NCBI GenBank assembly: GCA_030613045.1
Contig: JAUWMS010000046.1
Coordinates: 1-10,176, forward strand
Length of the DNA: 10,176 bases
Source: Candidatus Latescibacterota bacterium
Lineage (GTDB): Bacteria > Latescibacterota > 4484-107
Reading direction: 5' to 3'
The translations under genes and the position numbers were made by a program. Under the pieces are notes generated by a model. The model made no database searches and was not told the origin of the DNA. It saw nothing but the letters and a program-made list of their open reading frames with translations. Below are positions 1 to 10,176 of this stretch, in pieces (the stretch's first letter is position 1; every line of letters begins with the position of its first letter).

Positions 1-482
1 CCGTACCTTTTCTGCAATTGGATCGTGCCTTTTACGTCGAGCTTCACCTCCGGGTTCTTCGTCCCGATGCCGACCCTGCCGGAGGAGGGAAAGACATTTT
101 CCGCTCCCTCTACGTTGTAGAGATAGGGGGACATGGAGAAGCGGATGCGCGGTTCCATTTCCTGGCCAGTCTCCACTTTAACGGCCAGCCAGTAGGGCTG
201 ATTGCTAAAATCAATATTTGAAAGAGAGTTTTGGCTGCCCAATACCACACTGTAAACGCCGTTGACAATGCTGACATCCTGGTGGACTTCTTCCCAGAGA
301 GATGATCCGTCTTTTTCAGCCTCATACAGCCTGAAGGTCAATGTATAATCGCCATCCTCGACGGCTCGGCCATTGCTGTCTCTCAACACCCCCTGCGTGG
401 TCAGGGTCTGGCTCCATACGTCCTGGGCGAGCACGCTGAACACGACGACGCACAACAAAGCTACGGTAAGCATGCGTTTCAT
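1..482 (-). CDS. Secreted/surface protein, N-terminal part (3' end beyond the window)
   Basis: About 160 codons are visible and the frame is open to the window edge. The protein starts MKRMLTVALLCVVVFSVLAQ, a clear Sec signal peptide with a basic n-region and a long hydrophobic core, cleaved probably near residues 19-25. The mature part is a beta-rich domain: a 'GVLRDSNGRAVEDGDYTLTF' segment, then 'LYEAEKDGSSLWEE', 'NGVYSVVLGS' and 'YWLAVKVETGQEMEPRIRFS'. From memory this pattern is common in extracellular proteins of environmental bacteria. It is followed by 'VGIGTKNPEVKLDV', the start-of-stalk motif often seen before tail-fibre-like or adhesin-like C-terminal regions. The start is set by a strong Shine-Dalgarno AAGGAGGAG six bases upstream; a second in-frame ATG is codon 4. 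A sigma-54-type promoter lies about 165 bp upstream. Export and surface location are well supported. The exact function is unknown because the C-terminal part is missing. Confidence 0.8.
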   Translation of the reverse strand, partial: MKRMLTVALLCVVVFSVLAQDVWSQTLTTQGVLRDSNGRAVEDGDYTLTFRLYEAEKDGSSLWEEVHQDVSIVNGVYSVVLGSQNSLSNIDFSNQPYWLAVKVETGQEMEPRIRFSMSPYLYNVEGAENVFPSSGRVGIGTKNPEVKLDVKGTIQLQKRY

Positions 483-488
483 GATCTT

Positions 489-497
489 CTCCTCCTT
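489..497 (-). promoter_or_regulatory. Shine-Dalgarno site of the secreted protein gene
   Basis: On the minus strand AAGGAGGAG stands six bases before the ATG at 482-480. It favours this ATG over the in-frame ATG three codons later and supports the open frame as a real gene although it is cut by the window edge. Confidence 0.75.
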
Positions 498-503
498 GGG
501 TTT

Positions 504-552
504 GGTGATTGGTGATTGGTGAGTGGTGATGCGTGATTTGGCATTTCTGATC
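504..552. repeat. Heptamer array, GGTGATT family
   Basis: Seven consecutive 7-bp units read GGTGATT, GGTGATT, GGTGAGT, GGTGATG, CGTGATT, TGGCATT and TCTGATC, degrading to the right. The same words occur at 2783-2803 and 4652-4686. The array falls between the predicted sigma-54 start site (about 638) and the start codon at 482, so it would lie in the 5' untranslated leader. Confidence 0.8.
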
Positions 553-648
553 GGTAAAGGGTTCGGGTTGGCCTTGTGACAGGCTTCCCCATATTTTGGA
601 GGTTGATTTGCTTTCATCGCTTCCGCAGTGAGACACGGTATTATATAG

Positions 649-664
649 TGCAAAATCTATGCCA
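649..664 (-). promoter_or_regulatory. Sigma-54 (-24/-12) promoter
   Basis: The minus strand reads TGGCATAGATTTTGCA. The known sigma-54 consensus is TGGCAC-N5-TTGCA. The invariant GG (-24) and GC (-12) are present with exactly ten bases between them, and both TGGCA and TTGCA are complete. The predicted start is near 638, giving a leader of about 156 nt to the gene at 482. The element points at that gene, has palindromes 70-190 bp upstream where enhancer sites normally lie, and neighbours a gene encoding a sigma-54 activator. The match is seen directly; activity is inferred. Confidence 0.7.
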
Positions 665-727
665 GCTTCCCCGTTGTGATGCGCAACATCGCGGTTCGGG
701 GTTCGGGTGCAGGCTCCCTGATCGAAA

Positions 728-745
728 CGTGCGATTTAGCGCACG
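728..745. promoter_or_regulatory. Inverted repeat CGTGCG-N6-CGCACG, possible activator site
   Basis: A perfect 6-bp inverted repeat with a 6-bp spacer is centred about 98 bp upstream of the predicted sigma-54 start near 638. Position and symmetry fit an upstream activating sequence for an enhancer-binding protein dimer. Its sequence differs from the two palindromes further upstream except for a shared GTG...CAC theme. Confidence 0.4.
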
Positions 746-785
746 AGCTTTAATTTCCAAAATACGGGAACGAAAACTCTTTATA

Positions 786-801
786 TGTGATCCAGATCAC
801 A
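786..801. promoter_or_regulatory. Perfect TGTGA-N6-TCACA operator-like palindrome
   Basis: TGTGATCCAGATCACA, within TATGTGATCCAGATCACATA, has exactly the symmetry and spacing of a CRP-family binding site (TGTGA-N6-TCACA). It is centred 155 bp upstream of the predicted sigma-54 start. It could bind a CRP/FNR-type regulator, or be an enhancer site for the winged-helix sigma-54 activator encoded next door. The sequence does not decide between them. The palindrome is certain; its ligand is inferred. Confidence 0.65.
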
Positions 802-816
802 TAATTCCCACAAATC

Positions 817-842
817 TGTGATTCGGATCACGTTGATCCGAA
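817..842. promoter_or_regulatory. Second TGTGA-N6-TCACG operator with overlapping 9-bp inverted repeat
   Basis: TGTGATTCGGATCACG (817-832) repeats the upstream palindrome with one mismatch and lies 31 bp from it centre to centre, close to three helical turns. A perfect 9-bp inverted repeat TTCGGATCA-cgt-TGATCCGAA (822-842) overlaps it. Paired, helically phased operators suggest cooperative binding of two dimers on one DNA face. Confidence 0.6.
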
Positions 843-852
843 CTCATGCCTG

Positions 853-878
853 CGTTCCCACGCAGGAGCGTGGGAACG
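853..878. repeat. Palindromic dispersed repeat (CGTTCCCACGC hairpin)
   Basis: A perfect 11-bp inverted repeat, CGTTCCCACGC / GCGTGGGAACG, encloses the 4-base loop AGGA. From memory this exact hairpin word is a widespread intergenic repeat in environmental bacterial genomes, probably non-autonomous. Only one copy is in this window, so the family assignment rests on recall and not on local duplication. Confidence 0.6.
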
Positions 879-890
879 AGAGGAAACGCA

Positions 891-923
891 AAAAGTCAGG
901 TTTCTCAAAAAAACCTGACTTTT
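891..923 (-). terminator. Hairpin terminator, possibly bidirectional
   Basis: Perfect 13-bp arms AAAAGTCAGGTTT and AAACCTGACTTTT enclose a 7-base loop. On the minus strand the stem ends in five T residues, as expected for an intrinsic terminator about 215 bp past the stop of the response regulator gene. The plus strand also has a T run, so it could act in both directions. The stem is moderately A/T-rich. It may itself be a dispersed hairpin repeat used as a terminator. Confidence 0.6.
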
Positions 924-1055
924 AAGCCTTCCGCCCCTCTGATTTCCAAACCACTGCTCTCTCTGCGGACGCTCTGAGTAGGCTTAAAGTATCCGCAGAA
1001 ACCTCCTCTGAGCCTAACCGCCCTCCGTGTCCTTGTCCGCAGCAAATCCCCTCAT

Positions 1056-1097
1056 GTTTCATGTTTCACGCTTTACGTTTCACGCTTTACGTTTCAC
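1056..1097. repeat. Heptamer array, GTTTCAC family
   Basis: Six 7-bp units read GTTTCAT, GTTTCAC, GCTTTAC, GTTTCAC, GCTTTAC and GTTTCAC. The reverse complement, GTGAAAC, forms another array inside the kinase gene (6707-6734) and opens the one at 3735. It lies between the regulator stop codon and the hairpin terminator. Confidence 0.8.
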
Positions 1098-1137
1098 GAC
1101 TTCCCTTTGCGGCTTTGCGTGAGACCGGCACAACCTG

Positions 1138-2757
1138 TCAAGCCGGATAGTAACGCGCCCAGCGCCGTTCGCCGCGATGCGCCAACACGCCGTACCGCTC
1201 CATCTTTTGCAATAGATACGTGACGCGGTGCCGATCCGCCGCGAGAAGCTCCCGGCATTCGGGATTGCTGATGCTGTCGTGGGTGTGAACATACGCCAGG
1301 ATTTTTTCTTCGTCGGTGACCGAAGACGGCTCCGCCTGCGGCTCGGCTGGCTTCCGGGCACGTTGGACCATAAGCGCTTCCATCTGTTTTTGGTCTAAAG
1401 GGCGTTCTGTTTCCCCCGAGGGAGGCGCTGCTCGGTCGGCGGGGTACTCCCGCACGTCCATAAAGTGCAGATGTTGCGGCCGGATGACCGGACTGCCGTT
1501 TTGGATCAGAGCATGCTCGATGATGTTTTTCAACTCCCGGACGTTCCCCGGAAAAGGATAGACTTCCAACGCTGCCAATGCTTCCTGGCTTAACGTGCGC
1601 GGTGCGATGCCGATCTCTTCGGCAAACATGGCGAGAAAATGCTCGGCGAGTAATGAAATATCTTCCTTCCGCTCCCGCAAGGGGGGCACGGTCACGCTGA
1701 ACCGGGCGAGCCGAAAATAGAGGTCTTCCCGAAACGCGCCCTTGGCCATCTTTTCCTGGAGGTCCTGATTGGAGGCAGCCAGGATGCGGACGTCCACGTG
1801 CTTTTCGAGGGTGCCTCCGACAGGCATCACGCAACCGTCTTCGATCACGCGCAACAGCTTGGGTTGTAAGGAGAGTGGCATATCCCCGATTTCATCGAGG
1901 AATAGCGTGCCCCCGTCGGCCAGCTCAAAGGTTCCTTTGCGTTCGCGATGTGCTCCTGTAAATGCGCCGCGGACGTGGCCGAAGAAGCTGGACTCCGCCA
2001 ATTCACCGGGGATCGCCGAGCAATTGACGGGAATGAACGGTCCGTTGGCTCTCGTCCCTCCGAAATGGATGGCGCGGGCGACCAGTTCCTTGCCGGTCCC
2101 ACTTTCGCCGGTGATTAACACACTCATAGTCCCCGCACTCTGAAGCCTGCGAACGTCCTCCACGATTCTGCCAATAGTTTTGCTTTTCCCGATAAATCCA
2201 CCAATGCCCCAGCGATCCGCTTCCTGTTGGGAAAGGATGGAAAGGTGCTCATCCGCCTTTTGCAGAGCTTCCTCAGCCTGCTCGCGTGCGTTCTCCGCCT
2301 GTTCGCGCCGGGCGATCTCCTCCTGTAAGGCTTGATTTTTCTGCAAAAGCTCCTGCGTCAGCCGACTGATTTTCAGGTGGGTTTCCACACGGGCGAGCAC
2401 TTCCTCTTTTTCAAACGGTTTGGTGATGTAGTCCACACCACCCACCTGAAAGCCTTCCACGAGACTTTCCTTCTCCTCCTTCACCGTGACAAAGAGCACC
2501 GGAATGTGCCGGGTGGCTTCGTTTTCCTTCAGCCTGCGACACACCTCGTACCCGTTTACATCCGGCATGACCACGTCCAACAGGATGATGTCGGGCAACG
2601 CGCCCGCGGCGATCCGCAGGGCTGTTTGTCCATTAGGCGCACCTAAAATTTTATACCCCTCCGGCTCTAAGGCATCGCGCAATAGTTTCAGATTGGCGGG
2701 AACGTCATCTACAATAAGCAACCTGGGCCGTATGGAGTTGAATTGAGCTTTACTCAT
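1138..2757 (-). CDS. Sigma-54 enhancer-binding response regulator with C-terminal winged helix
   Basis: This 539-residue cytoplasmic activator has four parts. A receiver domain (about 12-128) carries the acidic pair D17/D18, phospho-acceptor D61 and K113. An Ala/Glu/Gln-rich coiled coil spans about 130-180. A sigma-54 AAA+ domain (about 187-415) has Walker A GESGTGKE (217-224), the sigma-54-contacting GAFTGA (264-269), Walker [10 protein letters not shown] (284-292) and the sensor-region AASN (327-330). After a Pro/Glu-rich linker, residues 480-537 look like a winged helix (EEKILAYV...NPECRELL...[12 protein letters not shown]) instead of the Fis-type helix-turn-helix usual in NtrC proteins. 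Start MSKAQF is chosen because AGGAG lies nine bases upstream and the frame further upstream is repeat-encoded. The start overlaps the kinase stop by 8 bp, implying translational coupling. It probably receives phosphate from that kinase and acts on sigma-54 promoters, with the one at 649-664 a close candidate. Domain calls are firm; target genes are inferred. Confidence 0.92.
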
Positions 2758-5700
2758 GCCGGATCGCTCCTGCGGGAGGATTGGTGAGTGGTGATTGGGG
2801 AGTGGGCATTGGGCATTGGGCATTCGGCATTGGGCATTCGGCATTGCTCATTGTTTCCAAAAGCTCCAGAATCCCTTCCATGTCGAAGTTCCGACTCAAG
2901 GCACGAAGGCGGTGGGCTAACGCACGTCCTTGTTCGTCCATCTTAGAGACTTCATCGAGCGATTCTTCCAGGTCCGTCACCTCGCCGAACTCCGCTGCCT
3001 GCCTGAGGCGCGAAAGGAGTGGAGCGGGAAGGACCATTATTTCAAACGCCGTCTGAGGCCCCTTGGTCTCCTCGTATTCGTATTCCACACGCAAAAGACG
3101 TGCCAGACATTCGTAAACGCGCCCGGCCCGCACGGGCTTGGGGATAAAATCGTCGAACCCCGCTTCAAAATATCGTTGCCGTTCGTGGACTAAAGCCGAA
3201 GCGGAAACCACCACCAACTTCGGACGGTCGTCTCTATATTCCTTCATAATGCGCTGAGTGGCTTCAAACCCGTCCATGACCGGCATCCGAATGTCCATGA
3301 ATATAATATCCGGTCGTTCGGCACGGACAGATTCCAGCACCTGTTGGCCGTCTTCAGCCGGGGTTACACCCACCCCAATATCTGCGAGCATCCGGGACAA
3401 CACCGTCCGGTTTTCCCGATTATCGTCCGCCACCAACGCGTTCACATGGTACCCTGCCGCGAGGCGCGTGACCTGCTTCCCCGAATCCACGGAACGAGGG
3501 GGCACCTCCTCTGTGGGAGGCTTAAACGGCACGGTGAAGAAAAAGCGGGAACCTTGCTTTGGAGTGGACTCGAAGGCAATGGCGCCGCCCATCAGTTCCA
3601 CGAGTCGTTTGGCAATCGTCAAACCCAGCCCGGTTCCTTCTTTTTTGGGGCCCTCTTTGCTTTGGATAAAGGGCTGGAAAATCGCCTTTCTGTCTTGCGG
3701 GGAAATGCCTGTTCCGGTGTCTGTGACCTCGAAGGTGAAACGTGAGTCGTCTGTTGTCCGTTGTCCCTCGTCATTCGTCGTTTGTGATTCGGTAATTCGT
3801 AATGTTATTTCGCCCGATTCGGTGAATTTGACTGCGTTGGAGAGAAGATTCATCAAAATCTGGCGGAGCTTGCCTTTGTCTCCGTGAACCCAAAGGGCGC
3901 GGGAGTCAGATTGCGGATTGCGGATTGCGGATTGGGGATTGGGAAGTTTCGGATCGTGCTGGGATTCGGGACGTTGCCACGCCACACGCCAGCGAAGCCC
4001 TTTCTGCCGGCAACGAAGCTGGAACATCACGGAAAGTCCCTCTATCAGGCCGGTGAGGTTGAAGTCGCTCTCCTCCAATTCCAGCCGTCCGGCTTCGATT
4101 TTGGAGATGTCCAGGACCTCGTTGATCAGCTCCAACAGGTGATTTCCACTGTCCTTGATGGTCGAAATGGCTTCTCTATGTGCGCCGGGCAAATCGGGTT
4201 TGCGCAGCAAAAGCTGCGCATATCCTAAAATCGCGTTCAAAGGCGTGCGGATATCGTGGCTTATGTTCGCAAGGAACGTGCTCTTGGCTTGATTGGCGGT
4301 CTCCGCGGTTTCTTTGGCTTTTTGAAGTTCCACGTTGCTTTTTTCAAGCACTTCGCGGGTGTGCCGCTCTTGCTGCAGTATATGACCTTGTAGTCTTTGG
4401 GCTTCGCGGCGTTTGGCATAGTACCGTGCGCCGAAAAAGACAGAGGAACTCAAGAGGAGAAAAAGGCCTCCCCATACTGGAACCGCAATCCAGCCATTGA
4501 GATACCAGGGTGGGACAACGATCAGAGCAATCCGCGCAGGCTCGGAGGTGTTGAGATCCCGGTCAATGGCCTGCACATCGAACACGTAATCGCCTGTTTT
4601 TCGGGGCGTCCAGTCAAAACTCGTCTCTCGCGTGGGTCTGCCCCAGTCTGCGGTGAGTGGTGAGTGGTGATTGGTGATTGGTGAGGCGGACTTCGTAATT
4701 CGAAAGCGAACCTGACGTTTTTCCGGATGGGTCTTAAAGTCTATGGTGTGCACCTCAATCGTCACACGACTCCCCGCCGTAATGGGCGGAACAGCCGCCG
4801 GATCCGTATATTTCCGATCCGTCTGCACCGAAACGATCCGCACCGCGGGCGGAGAAGCATGGCGACGATAGCGGGTAAGTCCGCTGTTGGTCCCGAACCA
4901 TAACGCCCCCTCCCGATCCTCGTGAATAGCGTACACGGTGTTGTCCGCCAATCCATCCCGTGTATCCAGGGAGGTCCAGTTCGTGCCATCGAATGCGCAG
5001 ACGCCCCCGGAATCGGTTCCCAACCACAGCCGCCCATCGGAGCTTTCATGGATCACCAACACATAGTCGTCAGCCAACCCCTCTTCCTTTGTCAGGTCGA
5101 AGAAGCGTTCCCCGTCATAGCGGGAAATCCCCCTTTTTGTGCCGAACCATAGCCTTCCATCCGGCCCGGGATAAATGGCCTCCACGTGGTTCGAAAGCAA
5201 TCCATCCTCCACGGTGAGGGCAACCAACCGCTTCCCATCGTATCGAAAAACGCCCCCGGCGTTCGTCCCGAACCAGAGGATGCCGTCGGCGTCCCCGTAA
5301 ATGGCCCGGACGTGGCCGTCCGTTAATCCGTCTTTTCCGGTCAGGATTTGGAAAATGCGCCGATTCCCGTCCAAACGAGAAACCCCACGGGCTTTGGCTC
5401 CGATCCACAGGGCGCCGTCGGGAGCTTCCTCGATGACATTGATCTGGTTGTACGCCAATCCATCTCCCTCATCCCACGTCTCGAATCGCTGTCCATCGTA
5501 TCGGGACAGCCCGCCCCCATCGGTCCCAAACCAGAGCATCCCATCGGTACTCCGATAGAGGGCATTCACCCTGTCATAGGGCAATCCGTCTTGGGTTGTG
5601 TAGTTAACAAACGTTTGGCCATCCCTTTGCTTATGCTCAGGATAAACTCCGCGGGAGGCGCCACCGTCTGTCCCAAACCACAAGGCCCCCGCCTCGTCCT

Positions 5701-8044
5701 CCGCAATCGCACGCACCCGGTTATGCGCCAGACCGTCTTGCGTGGTAAAATTGACGAAGGTATGGCCATCGTAGCGAGATACCCCACCACGGTACGTGCC
5801 AAACCACAGCGCGCCTTCCGCGTCCCGATGGATGGCTCGGACCTGGTCATTCGCCAACCCGTCGCGCATGGTGAAGGTGATAAACCCTTTGCCATCGTAG
5901 CGGGAAACGCCGGCGTCTGTCCCAAACCACAAGGCCCCCGCTTCGTCCTCCGCGATTGCACGCACCCGGTTATGCGCCAGACCATCCTCCGTCGTGAGAT
6001 TAACAAATGTGTGGTCCTCATAGCGAGATACCCCACCTACGGTCCCAATCCACAGCACTCCGTTTGCATCCCGATGGATGGCCCTGATCTCATTATGCAC
6101 CAGGCCATCTTGCGTCGTAAAGGTGGTGAACTCTTTTCCATTGTAGCAAGAAAGGCCATTGCAGGTCCCAAACCACGTCGTCCCATCGGGATCTTGATAG
6201 ATGGCTCGGACCTGGTTATTCGCCAACCCCTCTTTCTCGGTAAAGCGGACAAAGCTCCTGCCATCGTAGCGAGAAACCCCACCGTCATAAGTGCCAAACC
6301 ACAGCCCTCCATCATGATTCCGATAGATGGTTGTCACCCAGTTCGAGGCTAACCCCTCTTTCTCGGTAAAGTTGACGAAACTCCTGCCGTCGTACCGGGA
6401 AACCCCGCCGTCAGCACTTCCGAACCACAGGTCCCCATCTTTCTCACAATAGATGGTTGTCACCCAGTTCGAGACCAACCCATCTCTCTCAGTAAAGTTG
6501 ACGAAGTTCCTGCCATCGTACCGGGAGACGCCGTTTTCTGTTCCGAACCATATAAATCCCGCGGCGTCACTCGCGATGGCATAGACCGTATTACAGGCTA
6601 AGCCATCCAGGTAGGTATAGGTGCGCCACACTCCTTTTTTGAAGGGAGCGAAGCGGAAGCCGATATTGGAAAGGGTCTTGTGCTGGGCCACGTGTAAAAC
6701 GTCTCCGTGAAACGTGAAACGTGAAACGTGAGCGTGCCCTTCTTGTTTAGCTCCATAATAGATATAGTCTCCCGGGGTATAGCATCGCACTTGATAGGGG
6801 CCGGGCTTGAGGTTGATGAAGCGGTATTGGCCGTTTTCATCGCTCAAGGTGCTGGCAACTACGGTGCCCATTTCGGATTTCGGATTTCGGATTTCGGATT
6901 GCTTTGATTGCGGACCTGCTGGTTGTCCCGTGTCGCTGATTCGGACCGCCTGCACACAAACGCCCGCGTGGAGGGTATTATCATGCGTCAGGAGCGTCCC
7001 TGAAATGCTGACGGCTTCCTTCAGCGTGAGGTTGAAAGTACGGTGTTCTCCCGGCGAAAAGCGAAGCCCTACCCGCCAGGTTCCTTTTTCGTTCCACGTG
7101 GCCGAGAGATCAACCGGCCCGGCATTCGGAAAGCATACCATCCGATAGCGGCCTGCATCGTCGGTGGTGGTGCGTAAGAGGGTCTTCCCGTCCCTTCGCA
7201 TCGCTCCATGGTAGGCCTGTTCCAGACGAACCCCCGCACCGGCGAGAGGGTTTCCTGCCTCATCGCAAATTTTTCCAGATAGCACCATGGGACGAGCGAG
7301 ATCGTTTGGAGTGGGAAGGTCGGCTCCCACACAACAGGCATCCCCCATCAATATCCCATCGTGTCGGTTCCCGGACGAAGCCCCCGCGTCCCCCGAATCG
7401 AAGTTCCAAAGCCCCACGAGTCCTGTTTCGTCTCCCGTTAACCTCCGGAACATGGAAGCCTGAATCTGTTCCTCCGTGCGGGCGACCTTCCATACGCGCA
7501 CCTCGTCCAATTGTCCCTTGAAATCGTCGTTGTCCGACCAATGCGGCTTACCGAAATAGTTCTCTTCGTCATTACTGATCGCCGAAAAGCTGCCGGTATA
7601 TCCATGTTCTCCCACCAATATCCCATTGAGATATAGCCTCATGCCCTTCCTGCCAGACACACAGGCAATATGAACCCACCGATGCAATCGCAAGACGTCG
7701 GGCACTTTGATACAATACAATTTCATTTGAATATAGATGAAGAATTGCAAATCCGAGGTGTATTCGTCATTATTCACCACCATGGTCCGCCATTTTTCCC
7801 CGGACCCAAAACCGAACGGCTGAGAGTAATAGCCCAGCCGCTCCCACTTGACCCATCCTTCCACCGTGGCTTCGGAAAGGTCGTTGAAGATGTTGGAGGG
7901 CAATTGGACGTAATCGCCCTGTCCGTCCAGTTCGAGCACGCGGTTCTGGGCGGTTGCGGTAAGAGCAAATATGGGAGGCAACGGAAGGATGAAAAAGATC
8001 AGTCCGAGCCTCCACACCGCACGTTTCAAGAATTGGACAAGCAT
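2750..8044 (-). CDS. Hybrid sensor histidine kinase with LamG-like domain and 14-blade propeller
   Basis: This is a 1764-residue membrane sensor. A signal peptide (1-33, ending near 'TATAQ') leads to a LamG/concanavalin-like domain (about 35-222), two carboxypeptidase-regulatory-like beta domains (about 254-342 and 346-430), fourteen '[13 protein letters not shown]' propeller repeats (about 478-1060) and a Y_Y_Y domain (about 1066-1178). One membrane span (about 1182-1208) and a coiled coil (1210-1255) follow. HisKA has SHDIRTP with phospho-histidine H1263. HATPase (1385-1507) has N1399/N1403, DTGTG at 1442 and GTGLGL at 1470. A receiver (1534-1652) has D1540/D1541, D1584 and K1636. A C-terminal extension (about 1665-1730) is a helical type common behind such receivers. 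Start ATG 8044 has AGGTG seven bases upstream. The periplasmic layout matches Bacteroides hybrid systems that sense glycans, suggesting a polysaccharide or polymer ligand. The DNA-binding output is the separate gene overlapping its stop. Six heptamer arrays and one other repeat have been inserted without breaking the frame. Kinase identity is certain; ligand is inferred. Confidence 0.95.
2783..2852. repeat. Mosaic heptamer array at the kinase/regulator junction
   Basis: Ten 7-bp units run GGTGAGT, GGTGATT, GGGGAGT, then GGGCATT three times, CGGCATT, GGGCATT, CGGCATT and GCTCATT. Two word families (GGTGATT and GGCATT) are fused in one array. It encodes the last repeat-like stretch of the kinase (residues about 1731-1754, rich in 'NAQCPMP') and sits just upstream of the regulator start codon at 2757. 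Confidence 0.9.
3735..3804. repeat. Heptamer array inside the kinase ATPase domain
   Basis: Ten 7-bp units run GTGAAAC, GTGAGTC, GTCTGTT, GTCCGTT, GTCCCTC, GTCATTC, GTCGTTT, GTGATTC, GGTAATT and CGTAATG. On the coding strand they encode about residues 1415-1437 ('[20 protein letters not shown]'), an extra loop between the strands before the DTGTG motif. Frame is preserved and all nucleotide-binding motifs are intact. Confidence 0.8.
3908..3942. repeat. Heptamer array, GGATTGC family, between HisKA and ATPase domains
   Basis: Five units (AGATTGC, GGATTGC, GGATTGC, GGATTGG, GGATTGG) encode '[13 protein letters not shown]' at about residues 1368-1380 of the kinase, just before the conserved [15 protein letters not shown] segment. 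The same family is found at 6875-6909 and 9765-9792. Confidence 0.88.
4652..4686. repeat. Heptamer array, GGTGATT family, in the Y_Y_Y domain
   Basis: Five units (GGTGAGT twice, GGTGATT twice, GGTGAGG) encode '[11 protein letters not shown]' at about residues 1121-1131. This would be a loop of the periplasmic Y_Y_Y domain, between 'VRFRITK' and 'TSFDWTP'. A weaker flanking unit CGTAATT (4694-4700) resembles the words at 3791-3804. Confidence 0.88.
4861..6613 (-). repeat. Fourteen tandem two-component propeller repeats
   Basis: Within the kinase, a block of about 41-42 codons recurs fourteen times (residues about 478-1060), each with a '[13 protein letters not shown]' core and a 'F..FT..DGL..N.V.AI' edge. 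Fourteen units match the two seven-bladed propellers known in the sensor part of hybrid two-component systems. Blade 4 (SCYNG), blade 5 (SRYED) and blade 13 (CAFDG) diverge most. Blade 8 carries an extra insertion. Confidence 0.93.
5619..5650. repeat. Dispersed 'CATCCTGAGC'-type repeat fragment in blade 8
   Basis: On the coding strand this segment reads GAGTTTATCCTGAGC followed by ATAAGCAAAGGGATGG. That resembles a widespread bacterial dispersed repeat whose usual words are 'TTCATCCTGAGC' and 'GTCGAAGGATG' (recalled, not searched). In the kinase frame it encodes 'GVYPEHKQR' (residues 799-807), replacing the 'YDG' turn that the neighbouring blades have. It adds about eight residues to blade 8. 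Confidence 0.6.
6707..6734. repeat. Heptamer array, GTGAAAC family, after the second carboxypeptidase-like domain
   Basis: Three exact GTGAAAC units and a GTGAGCG encode 'AHVSRFTFH' (about residues 438-446) between the second beta domain and the propeller. The reverse-complement family is the array at 1056-1097. Confidence 0.82.
6875..6909. repeat. Heptamer array, GGATTTC family, in the second carboxypeptidase-like domain
   Basis: Units GGATTTC three times, GGATTGC and a degenerate TTTGATT encode '[12 protein letters not shown]' at about residues 380-391, splitting the beta domain between '[12 protein letters not shown]' and '[15 protein letters not shown]'. The frame is preserved. Confidence 0.88.
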
Positions 8045-8226
8045 ATATTACACCTGCATGTTCGCTGGAATATAATCCACATCAGAATGCTCGTGTGACC
8101 GTCTCGGACACCTCCATAGTTCCTCAGGCAGGGGAAGAATCTGTTGGAATGGAAGGAGGGAGTTCATCGAGACACGAATGATCTTTTGAAAACAAATCGG
8201 GGTATCCCTTCTATAACAATACGGGA

Positions 8227-9849
8227 TCACTCCCTTTCTCCAAAGACCTGCGTCCTGTACACGTAGAATTCCGCCCCTTCCCGCCACGCCCCCCCGGGCA
8301 ATCCCGCCTTCCGGCAAAGGGATTCCATCTCCTCCTCCACCGTAGCCCATCCCGCCTCCACAGGCACCTCAGGCAGATACGTCGCGCCCCGGCCTCCCTT
8401 CATCATAATGATCCCATGCTCTCCCATCTCGAATTCGCTCAGATCCTCGATCTTGTACACATTGGTCAGATACACCGACACCTTGATCCGCACATCGTTC
8501 AACTCCGCCTTCGAAAGCGGATGAAACCGGGGATCCCGGAACCCGGCCGCCCCCGCCATCTCAGGAACCAGCCTATACAGCGGCTCGTCGCTTTCGTGAT
8601 GCCCGATACATCCCCGAAGCTCCCCGTGCTTCGTCAGTGTGACAAACACGCCGCGTTGCTCCTTTAACACCTCGAACTTCGGCTCGAACGCAGGCACTTT
8701 CCCCGACTTCAAATAGCCCTCCATCGTTGCTCGCGCCATTCGGAGAAGCTCCTGCTGAGCCTCTCGATCCAAAGGCTCATATTCCACCCTTCGGGCTTGA
8801 TTCCTCGAGGGCGAAGCCTTTCTCGAATTTTTCTTTTTCATCTCCGTGCCCCCCTTCTTCGCGTTCCTGTAAATGACCGCCGCACCATAGCCGACCACGT
8901 ATCCTCCGCGTTCCCCGGTCACCTCGTTGGAATTGGTTCGGGCGATCACCCTGACTTGATCGGCTCCCATCGCCCGGGCCGCCATCTCTGCCACCACAAT
9001 GGGGCCTCCTCCGCACGCCTGAAACGTCCCGCTCGCAAGCCCCTCCCACAGCTTCTCCGGTTGAAACGCCTCCACAGCCCTCAAAGTCCGCGCATCCGTC
9101 CGCACGCAAGCCTCGTAGGAATGGCCGTGATAGAGATCGGAACTCGCCACGATCAGCACGTTTTTCCCCTTGCAGGCGGAAACAATCGCCTCGGCCAAAC
9201 GTCGGCAGGTCGTCCTCGTCCGATCTCCCCTCACCATCGGAACGATCCGGAGCTTCTTCCCAAGCGCCCGCTGCAAAAAAGGAAGCTCCACCTCCACGGA
9301 GTGCTCCCTCCCATGCCCCGTCCTGGTAAAGCGAATCGCGTCGTCCTGAGCGATGATCGCCCTGGCAAGCTTCGTATCCACGGGAACGATCCCCAGCGGC
9401 GTCTCATACCCTCCCCGGTCCCAGACGGATACGCCCCGGAAGCCCTCGTGGTGGCTGGGGCCGATCACGATCACTGCGTCGAACGGCTTCCCGACGATCT
9501 GCTTGAAACCTGCCGCCGCGATCCGACCGGAATAGGGATATCCGGCGTGGGGACAGACCAGAGCGATCACCTCACCATCAATCTCGACAGCCTGAGCAGC
9601 CTCCAGCAGATCGTTCACCTGACTCTCCAGCACCTCTCGATCCCTGGGATAGAAACTTCCGGCCGCGGCCATGCGGCGCACGTCCCCCGGAGCGATTCTT
9701 TCCTCAGCCGCTCCCGAACAGCTTGTGAGGAGGCCCATCAACACCACCCACATCCACCCCACCCGGATTTGGGATTGCGGATTTCGGATTTCGGAGTGAA
9801 AACCCCAACCCTTAGAACCCCAACTTACAATCCCGCTTCGCATTTTCAT
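8227..9849 (-). CDS. Lipoprotein fusing MEMO1-family (protein B) and AMMECR1 (protein A) domains
   Basis: The 540-residue product joins two components of the 'AmmeMemoRadiSam' set. Residues 1-44 are a lipoprotein signal (basic n-region, core WVVLMGLL, lipobox LTSC with C44). Residues about 56-327 are a MEMO1-type domain in which the residues matching human MEMO1 metal-site and pocket positions H49, H81, D189, H192 and C244 are seen: H101 in CPHAGY, H133/H134 in GPSHH, D238 and H241 in SSDLYHGH, and C279 in ACGGGP. A Lys/Arg/Ser-rich linker (about 330-353) leads to an AMMECR1 domain (about 355-537) with the hallmark LRGCIG (411-416). The start at 9849 is set by AAGGAG five bases upstream. The frame runs on to 10032 only through repeat DNA and a TTG. 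The molecular role of these families in bacteria is not settled; metal-linked redox chemistry is known for human MEMO1. The radical SAM partner is not in the window. A heptamer array lies within the signal peptide coding region. Confidence 0.9.
   Translation of the reverse strand: MKMRSGIVSWGSKGWGFHSEIRNPQSQIRVGWMWVVLMGLLTSCSGAAEERIAPGDVRRMAAAGSFYPRDREVLESQVNDLLEAAQAVEIDGEVIALVCPHAGYPYSGRIAAAGFKQIVGKPFDAVIVIGPSHHEGFRGVSVWDRGGYETPLGIVPVDTKLARAIIAQDDAIRFTRTGHGREHSVEVELPFLQRALGKKLRIVPMVRGDRTRTTCRRLAEAIVSACKGKNVLIVASSDLYHGHSYEACVRTDARTLRAVEAFQPEKLWEGLASGTFQACGGGPIVVAEMAARAMGADQVRVIARTNSNEVTGERGGYVVGYGAAVIYRNAKKGGTEMKKKNSRKASPSRNQARRVEYEPLDREAQQELLRMARATMEGYLKSGKVPAFEPKFEVLKEQRGVFVTLTKHGELRGCIGHHESDEPLYRLVPEMAGAAGFRDPRFHPLSKAELNDVRIKVSVYLTNVYKIEDLSEFEMGEHGIIMMKGGRGATYLPEVPVEAGWATVEEEMESLCRKAGLPGGAWREGAEFYVYRTQVFGERE
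8839..8856 (-). promoter_or_regulatory. Possible internal start and ribosome site for the AMMECR1 half
   Basis: On the minus strand a purine run GAAGGGGGG precedes an in-frame ATG (8841-8839, residue 337) with CACGGAG between them. The downstream codons give MKKKNSRKASPSRNQARR and then the AMMECR1 domain. It may be the relic of a separate gene start from before the fusion, or a working site that makes an unanchored AMMECR1 protein of about 204 residues. Confidence 0.4.
9765..9792. repeat. Heptamer array, GGATTTC family, inside the lipoprotein signal peptide
   Basis: Four units (GGATTTG, GGATTGC, GGATTTC, GGATTTC) encode 'SEIRNPQSQI' at residues 19-28, between the start codon and the hydrophobic core of the signal. 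Two more units (GGATTTT twice, 9869-9882) lie just upstream of the gene. Confidence 0.85.
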
Positions 9850-9854
9850 AGTTT

Positions 9855-9860
9855 CTCCTT
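9855..9860 (-). promoter_or_regulatory. Shine-Dalgarno AAGGAG of the MEMO1-AMMECR1 gene
   Basis: AAGGAG lies five bases before ATG 9849-9847. It decides the start: the longer frame to 10032 runs through a dispersed hairpin and heptamer repeats, and the later ATG at residue 33 would give a signal peptide without a basic n-region. Confidence 0.75.
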
Positions 9861-9883
9861 CCGACTTCGGATTTTGGATTTTT

Positions 9884-9966
9884 GCACCGCAAAGTCGCAA
9901 AGGACGCCAAGAAAGGCAAAAACCAAAGTCTTGAAGTTCTTTGCGCTCTTCGCGTCTTTGCGGTGC
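9884..9966. repeat. Dispersed inverted repeat (GCACCGCAAAG hairpin)
   Basis: Perfect 11-bp ends GCACCGCAAAG (9884-9894) and CTTTGCGGTGC (9956-9966) enclose further imperfectly paired arms ('CGCAAAGGACGCCAAG' against 'CTTTGCGCTCTTCGCG'). This makes a long hairpin of about 83 bp. From memory, 'TTTGCG..CTTCGCGTCTTTGCGG' words are a common non-coding repeat in environmental genomes. A partial relative, 'CTTTGCGGCTTTGCGTG', appears near 1104-1120. It occupies the region upstream of the MEMO1-AMMECR1 gene, where a promoter would be expected. Confidence 0.7.
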
Positions 9967-9970
9967 GTAG

Positions 9971-9991
9971 TCATTCCGTAATCCGCAATCC
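9971..9991. repeat. Short heptamer array, GGATTGC family
   Basis: Three units, minus strand GGATTGC, GGATTAC and GGAATGA, abut the right end of the 9884-9966 hairpin. They link the hairpin repeat to the heptamer class found throughout the window. Confidence 0.65.
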
Positions 9992-10025
9992 GAGAAAACC
10001 CAACCATATCCCCAGCACGTCCCCA

Positions 10026-10176
10026 CTACCAAAAGATACCATCCTTCTCATAGCATAGCACCAGAGCCGCAGCTTCTTTGTAGTGCCTGTGCATCGCCTT
10101 GGTTTCAAGATAGGGCATAAACAATCTTTCAACCGGGAACGTTCTCTTCAGAAGATAGGAATGCTTAAACTTGCAG
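10026..10176 (-). CDS. Unidentified protein, C-terminal end only
   Basis: Forty-nine codons enter from the right edge and stop at TAG (10028-10026). The other two minus-strand frames close within the first 30 bases of the edge. The visible tail includes 'YLLKRTFPVERLFMPYLETK' and ends 'CYEKDGIFW'. It is rich in basic and aromatic residues with no recognisable motif, and I do not recognise the family. It lies 177 bp upstream of the MEMO1-AMMECR1 start on the same strand, so co-transcription is possible, but the gap is filled with repeats. It does not resemble the radical SAM component that usually accompanies the next gene, although only a short tail is visible. Confidence 0.5.
   Translation of the reverse strand, partial: CKFKHSYLLKRTFPVERLFMPYLETKAMHRHYKEAAALVLCYEKDGIFW

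Follow-up and report, generated by a model that had tools for sequence, protein, structure and literature searches.

What switches on the gene of an apparently secreted protein that is cut by the end of contig C207, and is the switch encoded next to it? The window, i.e. the whole stretch of DNA analysed, corresponds to bases 1-10176 of this contig in genome G000 (3.14 Mb, 78% complete), which belongs to a relative of Poribacteria. Its minus strand carries, in order, the genes for a hybrid sensor kinase and a sigma-54 enhancer-binding protein (EBP), a terminator, a REP-like hairpin, two palindromes of the CRP type, a sigma-54 element and the start of the secreted-protein gene. These are likely to form a self-contained sensor-activator-promoter cassette plus a second, CRP-dependent promoter; the sigma-54 part of the circuit, taken by itself, is held with high confidence. 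Sequence and comparison show the order of genes and elements, the conserved place of an element after EBPs of this family, the fixed spacing between CRP-type site and hexamer, the presence of a CRP gene in four other genomes of the class, and the winged helix of the EBP.

We infer that the propeller hybrid kinase phosphorylates the co-translated EBP, which would then activate sigma-54 RNA polymerase at 649-664 and turn on gene 1-482 from a start near 638. A second promoter of the sigma-70 type would serve the same gene. At this promoter CRP would bind at -41.5 and -72.5, upstream of a TATTTT -10 hexamer and of a start near 752, both promoters being presumed active.

The kinase, the activator and the sigma-54 element

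The kinase (2750-8044, minus strand; 1764 amino acids) matches the Pfam families LamG, CarboxypepD_reg, Reg_prop propeller, Y_Y_Y, HisKA, HATPase_c and receiver. Propeller, Y_Y_Y, HisKA, HATPase and receiver are all found within one chain, in which Pfam matched no AraC DNA-binding domain. The ligand is not inferable from the LamG-like and propeller domains. Among six kinases scanned in related loci, all have HisKA, HATPase_c and receiver domains and four have Reg_prop; the remaining two (L181, L198; L and P labels denote loci and proteins of EBP relatives) carry LamG arrays instead. Short dispersed repeats of the GGTGATTGGTGA, GGATTGCGGATT and GTGAAAC types lie inside the kinase frame at 2781-2840 (the 3' end of the gene), 3906-3940, 4657-4685, 6710-6731 and 6872-6900; by eye, they leave the frame unbroken and are read as peptides.

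The EBP gene (1138-2757, minus strand) begins with an 8-base overlap with the kinase stop (ATGAGTAA). The same overlap is found in 8 of 27 loci having an upstream frame, some of these frames being spurious, and an 11-base overlap in 3 more. In Pfam the protein matches Response_reg (PF00072, E 3.1e-28), Sigma54_activat (PF00158, E 5.6e-64) and AAA_lid_14. Its receiver and AAA+ domains are unremarkable. The GAFTGA motif of the AAA+ domain, read directly in the translation (1951-1968), is strongly conserved in a 31-row alignment.

Downstream of the EBP lies the element TGGCATAGATTTTGCA (649-664, minus strand), which has no mismatch to TGGCAYRNNNNTTGCW, taken here as the consensus of the sigma-54 -24/-12 element. 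With position -12 placed at 650, transcription is predicted to start at 638. The putative target (3-482, minus strand) is an open reading frame with an ATG at 482 following a AGGAGGAGA-like ribosome site. The frame runs off the contig end; its product has, by eye, a signal-peptide-like start and found no match in a Pfam search. Sigma-54 itself was looked for in the genome and is encoded there (rpoN, G000:C169; PF00309, 51.5 bits).

The exact sigma-54 pattern occurs 13 times in the 3.14 Mb, and about 0.001 matches are expected in one strand of the 473 bp leading from the EBP to the element. Four of the 13 are located 299-505 bp after one of the eight EBP genes of the genome, on the same strand (C207, C29, C13, C480). 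About 0.009 such EBP-linked elements are expected within 520 bp, a limit chosen after the distances were seen. The EBP frames at C57 and C67 run off the contig end, and the DNA downstream of them is not visible. The EBPs at C29, C13 and C480 (L004, L209, L208), each followed by an exact element on the same strand, have ends that look Fis-like by eye, and the gene after the C29 element begins like that of a secreted protein.

The arrangement was also searched for in relatives of the EBP, of which those with names are mostly Candidatus Poribacteria (the top four among 80 loci, plus several named protein rows). Thirty-five loci were compared: 30 EBP relatives drawn from the matches listed in 60 related genomes, four named loci and the window. 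The 30 were fetched out of 31 picked; G054:C31, whose 3' end is at base 2 of its contig, was left out. Elements were counted at the 33 loci whose downstream DNA reaches 300 bp or more, two EBPs ending at a contig end. For five broken or cut EBP frames (L170, L180, L192, L194, L091) the stop of the frame itself served as reference. With at most one mismatch, an element is found within 300 bp of the EBP stop at 13 of 33 loci on the same strand and at none on the opposite strand (8 of 1524 background tiles). Within 500 bp the figures are 14, the window included, and 1 (background 8 of 888). Allowing two mismatches they become 17 and 0 in 300 bp (background 44 of 1524), and 19 and 3 in 500 bp (background 41 of 888). 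By this comparison, the position of the sigma-54 element after the EBP is conserved in the relatives.

In seven of the 14 loci with an element (L171, L172, L173, L088, L090, L197 and the window) the first same-strand gene after it looks exported by eye. By the same criterion the targets of L180 and L182 do not look exported, that of L175 is ambiguous, and L185 has a GGAGND-type repeat protein without signal peptide. A receiver-like protein (MKxPxLHIYLxEAENYARQVV) is interposed between element and next large gene in L177, L192 and L199, and a short piece of it in L197. The targets of the four two-mismatch loci looked at (L181, L187, L191, L089) all begin like exported proteins. Frames with GGAGND-type, calcium-binding-like repeats, probably encoding large secreted proteins, start 210 bp after the EBP stop in L185 and 1180 bp after it in L199.

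The initial annotation of this DNA had described a GAFTGA-type EBP gene, a terminator, a TGGCA-N6-TTGCA element at 649-664 and, ahead of the predicted start, inverted repeats with centres at distances of 98, 155 and 186 bp. It had proposed a local circuit linking kinase, EBP, sigma-54 promoter and neighbour gene, and suggested that the kinase may sense an external polymer. The elements are all present, and the circuit is supported by the same order in relatives, by the 13 to 0 strand bias of the element and by the presence of rpoN.

Several observations weigh against this circuit. With up to one mismatch the sigma-54 pattern is not enriched genome-wide (75 sites vs 70 in a reversed control), so that the element is convincing only through its position. 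It lies 474 bp from the EBP stop, vs 93-281 bp in the 13 relatives having it within 300 bp. At 19 of 33 loci no element with at most one mismatch was found within 500 bp, and the next gene is signal-peptide-like in only half of the loci that have one. The 33 loci are moreover related, some being near-copies (L089/L090, L180/L182), and binomial P values overstate the case. The missing enrichment, the long distance and the fact that no EBP operator was found in the window would all suit an alternative in which the element is a chance match, gene 1-482 is driven by CRP only and the EBP acts elsewhere. This is unlikely, since the match is exact in an interval where about 0.001 was expected, at the kind of place that the relatives and three further EBPs in G000 would predict.

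CRP-type palindromes and a probable second promoter

Two of the three inverted repeats have the form read by E. coli CRP: TGTGATCCAGATCACA (786-801, centre 793.5) and TGTGATTCGGATCACG (817-832, centre 824.5), 155.5 and 186.5 bp from 638, respectively. The sequence TGTGA-N6-TCACA is found in eight exact copies in the genome and, with at most one mismatch, in 40 forward matches vs 16 in the control. The palindromes at 786-801 and 817-832 are beyond chance. A -10-like hexamer, TATTTT (759-764, minus strand), follows the first site. Because the hexamer is exactly 21 bp downstream, this site is placed at -41.5 from a start at about 752, and the second falls at -72.5. The spacing was checked on the eight exact palindromes only. 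In six, TAnnnT follows the site at exactly 21 bp (TATTTT in C207, C481 and C324, TACTAT in C248, TATCTT in C149, TACCTT in C22), and each of the other offsets from 0 to 44 is represented 0-2 times. The 43-bp pattern of site plus hexamer, searched on both strands with at most one mismatch, gave nine matches in G000, of which two represent the C207 and C248 palindromes read on the other strand, vs none in the control. Over five genomes of the class it gave 17 vs 5.

Site, spacer and hexamer are conserved in the congener G001 upstream of the ortholog (C46) of the C481 gene, and at E 1e-160 nothing in G001 matched the EBP. Contig C248 shares the tract 780-881 of the window at 83% identity, with the pair of sites 31 bp apart (G000:C248 7923/7954). 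This copy (G000:C248:7896-8017), which includes both sites and the -10 hexamer, is located upstream of another apparently secreted protein, and no EBP or sigma-54 element with at most one mismatch was found in the 2.7 kb seen there. Several surface genes may have this CRP-type promoter in common.

The genome encodes three cNMP-binding proteins. HTH_Crp_2 scores above cut-off in each of the other four class genomes, and all four proteins have in the recognition helix the residues RETVSR, an arrangement that reads TGTGA in E. coli CRP. In all four the CRP gene is directly upstream of a CorC-like gene. The homologue of this neighbour in G000, 87% identical from residue 31, begins at base 3251 on the minus strand of contig C209 (3258 bases) and runs off its end. 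The assembly thus breaks where the CRP gene is expected.

At E. coli class II/III CRP promoters TGTGA-N6-TCACA is centred at -41.5, with a second site upstream and the -10 hexamer 21 bp after the site. The window is alike in all three features. It differs for the poor -10 (TATTTT), for the CRP gene known only from relatives, and for the sigma-54 promoter found downstream. The palindromes most likely belong to CRP as a second, general regulator and not to the EBP, and the secreted-protein gene probably has two promoters, one for CRP (start about 752) and one for sigma-54 (start about 638).

On the debit side, no CRP helix-turn-helix was found above cut-off in the incomplete G000 assembly, and two of the eight exact palindromes do not fit the spacing (C402 has TAnnnT at 22, not 21; C274 has none). 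C324, C149 and C274 hold both a palindrome and a sigma-54 element when one mismatch is allowed, and in C324 the two adjoin, the palindrome being downstream of the element.

The initial annotation had taken the repeats at 155 and 186 bp as enhancers, which the winged helix of the EBP would bind to activate a single sigma-54 promoter. The distances do suit DNA looping, the CRP gene is absent from the assembly, C324 has its one-mismatch element next to a palindrome, though upstream of it, and the winged-helix relative L171 has a 20-bp palindrome after its EBP. The idea is nevertheless improbable. Exact palindromes occur on seven other contigs, which have no exact sigma-54 element and none of the eight EBP genes; conversely, the palindrome had been expected beside further TGGCA-N6-TTGCA elements, and none of the other 12 exact ones shares a contig with an exact palindrome. 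Most exact sites have the hexamer at the class II offset, site and hexamer are conserved in G001, which lacks a close EBP, and five of six other winged-helix EBPs tested adjoin 11-bp direct repeats. CRP-type palindromes are not to be read as sigma-54 enhancers. Least probable of all is that CRP modulates the sigma-54 promoter or bends the DNA there, with no separate sigma-70-type promoter: its sites lie at distances common for remote proteins at promoters of this kind, but the class II-spaced hexamer also occurs at loci, C481 and C248 among them, where no sigma-54 element is close by.

The DNA-binding domain of the activator and its operators

The EBP is predicted to end in a winged helix (1141-1314, minus strand; residues 482-539) in place of a Fis domain. 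An AlphaFold2 model built on the 31-row alignment shows there a helix-helix-helix-strand-strand succession with pLDDT blocks of 78-87. The model of the whole protein is poor (mean pLDDT 67.9, pTM 0.34), as is that of the domain folded alone without alignment (pLDDT 61.8). In Pfam the C-terminus has no match to PF02954 (HTH_8, Fis), and has only sub-threshold matches of winged-helix type, e.g. a weak Penicillinase_R (E 0.071); a sequence search of the PDB with the last 74 residues gave no match up to E 10. P0001, P0002 and P0004-P0007 share the recognition helix of the EBP exactly or almost exactly.

By motif, 107 of 142 EBP relatives were labelled as winged helix and 35 as Fis-like. The 142 come from 155 proteins: ten with no motif-recognised C-terminal domain were left out, two of which (P0100, P0105) do carry PF02954, as were three too short in the part used. 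The label of L170, whose frame breaks after the winged helix, was set by hand. On a tree of receiver and AAA+ domains, obtained by a quick method with SH-aLRT support only, at least seven changes of domain type are needed, four of them forced by starred branches, vs a mean of 31 for shuffled labels. The C-terminal domain has by this tree been exchanged more than once in the family, though not often. P0108 and P0116, close relatives of the EBP, feature a third kind of C-terminal domain, with the motif FGIPEADY or FGISEADY.

Many relatives have repeats of their own between EBP and sigma-54 element. Direct repeats of period 10-12 were searched for in 19 EBP-to-promoter regions, each compared with 200 shuffles. 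Of the winged-helix copies, L197, L199 and L088 have tandem 11-bp repeats whose score was reached by no shuffle; one shuffle did so for L171, six for L177 and 200 for L183, the one winged-helix copy of the six lacking both the repeats and a good sigma-54 element. By eye, the units of several winged-helix copies share a TCTA core. Among Fis-like copies the counts are 29 (L175), 63 (L185), 93 (L090), 100 (L089), 121 (L173), 142 (L181) and 167 (L172), and for the broken frames L180 and L192 they are 47 and 147. Winged-helix copies are not alone in giving low values: three other Fis-like ones, L187, L191 and L182, gave 1, 5 and 9. The window has no convincing 11-bp direct repeats, as 9 of 200 shuffles reach its best score, and the operator of its EBP was not found, a further point against the cassette.

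Palindromes were assessed in 16 regions with 60 shuffles each. The score was reached by no shuffle in L181, L182 and L171, by 1 in the window, 4 in L185, 5 in L191, 10 in L175, 13 in L173, 23 in L090 and 33-58 in the other seven. The score of the window is that of the REP-like hairpin and not of the CRP-type sites, and that of L171 comes from the 20-bp palindrome, which is part of a repeat block. Fis-type copies have palindromes of differing sequence, clear in L181 and L182; by these counts the single ones are mostly weak. The third inverted repeat of the window, CGTGCG-N6-CGCACG (728-745, centre 736.5, 98.5 bp from 638), is weak and no more than a candidate EBP site. Its arms are of 6 bp, it is not among the 25 pairs of at least 8 nt, and by a hand estimate it is within chance.

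Relation to known systems, and other features of the window

Bacteroides propeller hybrid two-component systems unite Reg_prop propeller, Y_Y_Y, HisKA, HATPase and receiver with a fused AraC domain. The window kinase is similarly a large periplasmic propeller with the same domains in one chain, but its output is a separate sigma-54 EBP. A regulator gene with its sigma-54 target directly downstream is known from PilR-pilA.

Passages of Francke et al. 2011 (PMC3162934) divide EBPs into classes, HTH_8 (Fis) being part of type Ia, and propose the cell exterior as the theme of sigma-54 targets. The window EBP resembles group Ia as there described for the receiver, the GAFTGA AAA+ domain, the partner histidine kinase and a target linked to the cell exterior, and differs for the C-terminal winged helix. 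Parts of PMC4641369 describe the DVU0151-type EBP of Desulfovibrionales, with a predicted winged helix and a gene close to a sigma-54 promoter. Predicted winged helix in place of Fis and nearby promoter are shared with the window; by that account DVU0151 is however one-component and divergent from its target, whereas the window EBP belongs to the response regulators and is followed by the promoter on its own strand. The same source lists DVU0569, DVU0653 and DVU0679 as EBP genes immediately preceding a sigma-54 target, the regulator being followed by its own target as here. Those described here differ in forming a multi-copy family, with propeller/LamG hybrid kinases and often exported-protein neighbours. 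Winged-helix EBP and downstream sigma-54 promoter each have precedents, as far as these passages go (PMC4641369). In the passages found of PMC3909097, Poribacteria two-component genes are mentioned only beside microcompartments. No description of the cassette family was found among the papers listed on sigma-54 or two-component systems in Poribacteria, propeller kinases with sigma-54, winged-helix EBPs, EBP architecture, upstream activating sequences with direct repeats, PilR-pilA and class II CRP promoters with sigma-54, subscription papers being mostly outside the search.

A broader reading is put forward tentatively, at slightly less than an even chance. Poribacteria-like bacteria would host multiplied modular cassettes in the order propeller/LamG hybrid kinase, EBP, private operator, sigma-54 promoter and target, often exported. 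In these Fis and winged helix would have replaced each other repeatedly as the DNA-binding domain of the EBP, and the winged-helix copies would read tandem 11-bp direct repeats between EBP gene and promoter; the window copy would have an added upstream CRP promoter. If the reading is correct, an uncultured lineage, whose members are sponge- and particle-associated, runs many one-to-one sensor-to-target sigma-54 circuits that can be read from DNA alone, their parts being side by side. Swapping of winged helix and Fis, with a matching change of operator, would likewise be a natural setting in which to study how activators come to recognise new sites.

The intrinsic terminator following the EBP gene (891-923, minus strand) is a perfect 13-bp inverted repeat (891-903/911-923), after which the minus strand has five T. 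Next to it lies the dispersed REP-like hairpin (850-886; core TGCGTTCCCACGCAGGAGCGTGGGAACG), outside the circuit, which matches repeats in G000 and G001. Of the matches to a 291-bp query, 59 in G000 and 42 in G001, most fall on 850-886, and some are one copy scored on both strands. A scan of the window against Rfam gave no match at gathering score, and nothing resembling 483-1140 was found in phage records. Upstream of the kinase, the long frame 8227-10032 (minus strand) appears by eye to join a MEMO1-like part to an AMMECR1-like part.

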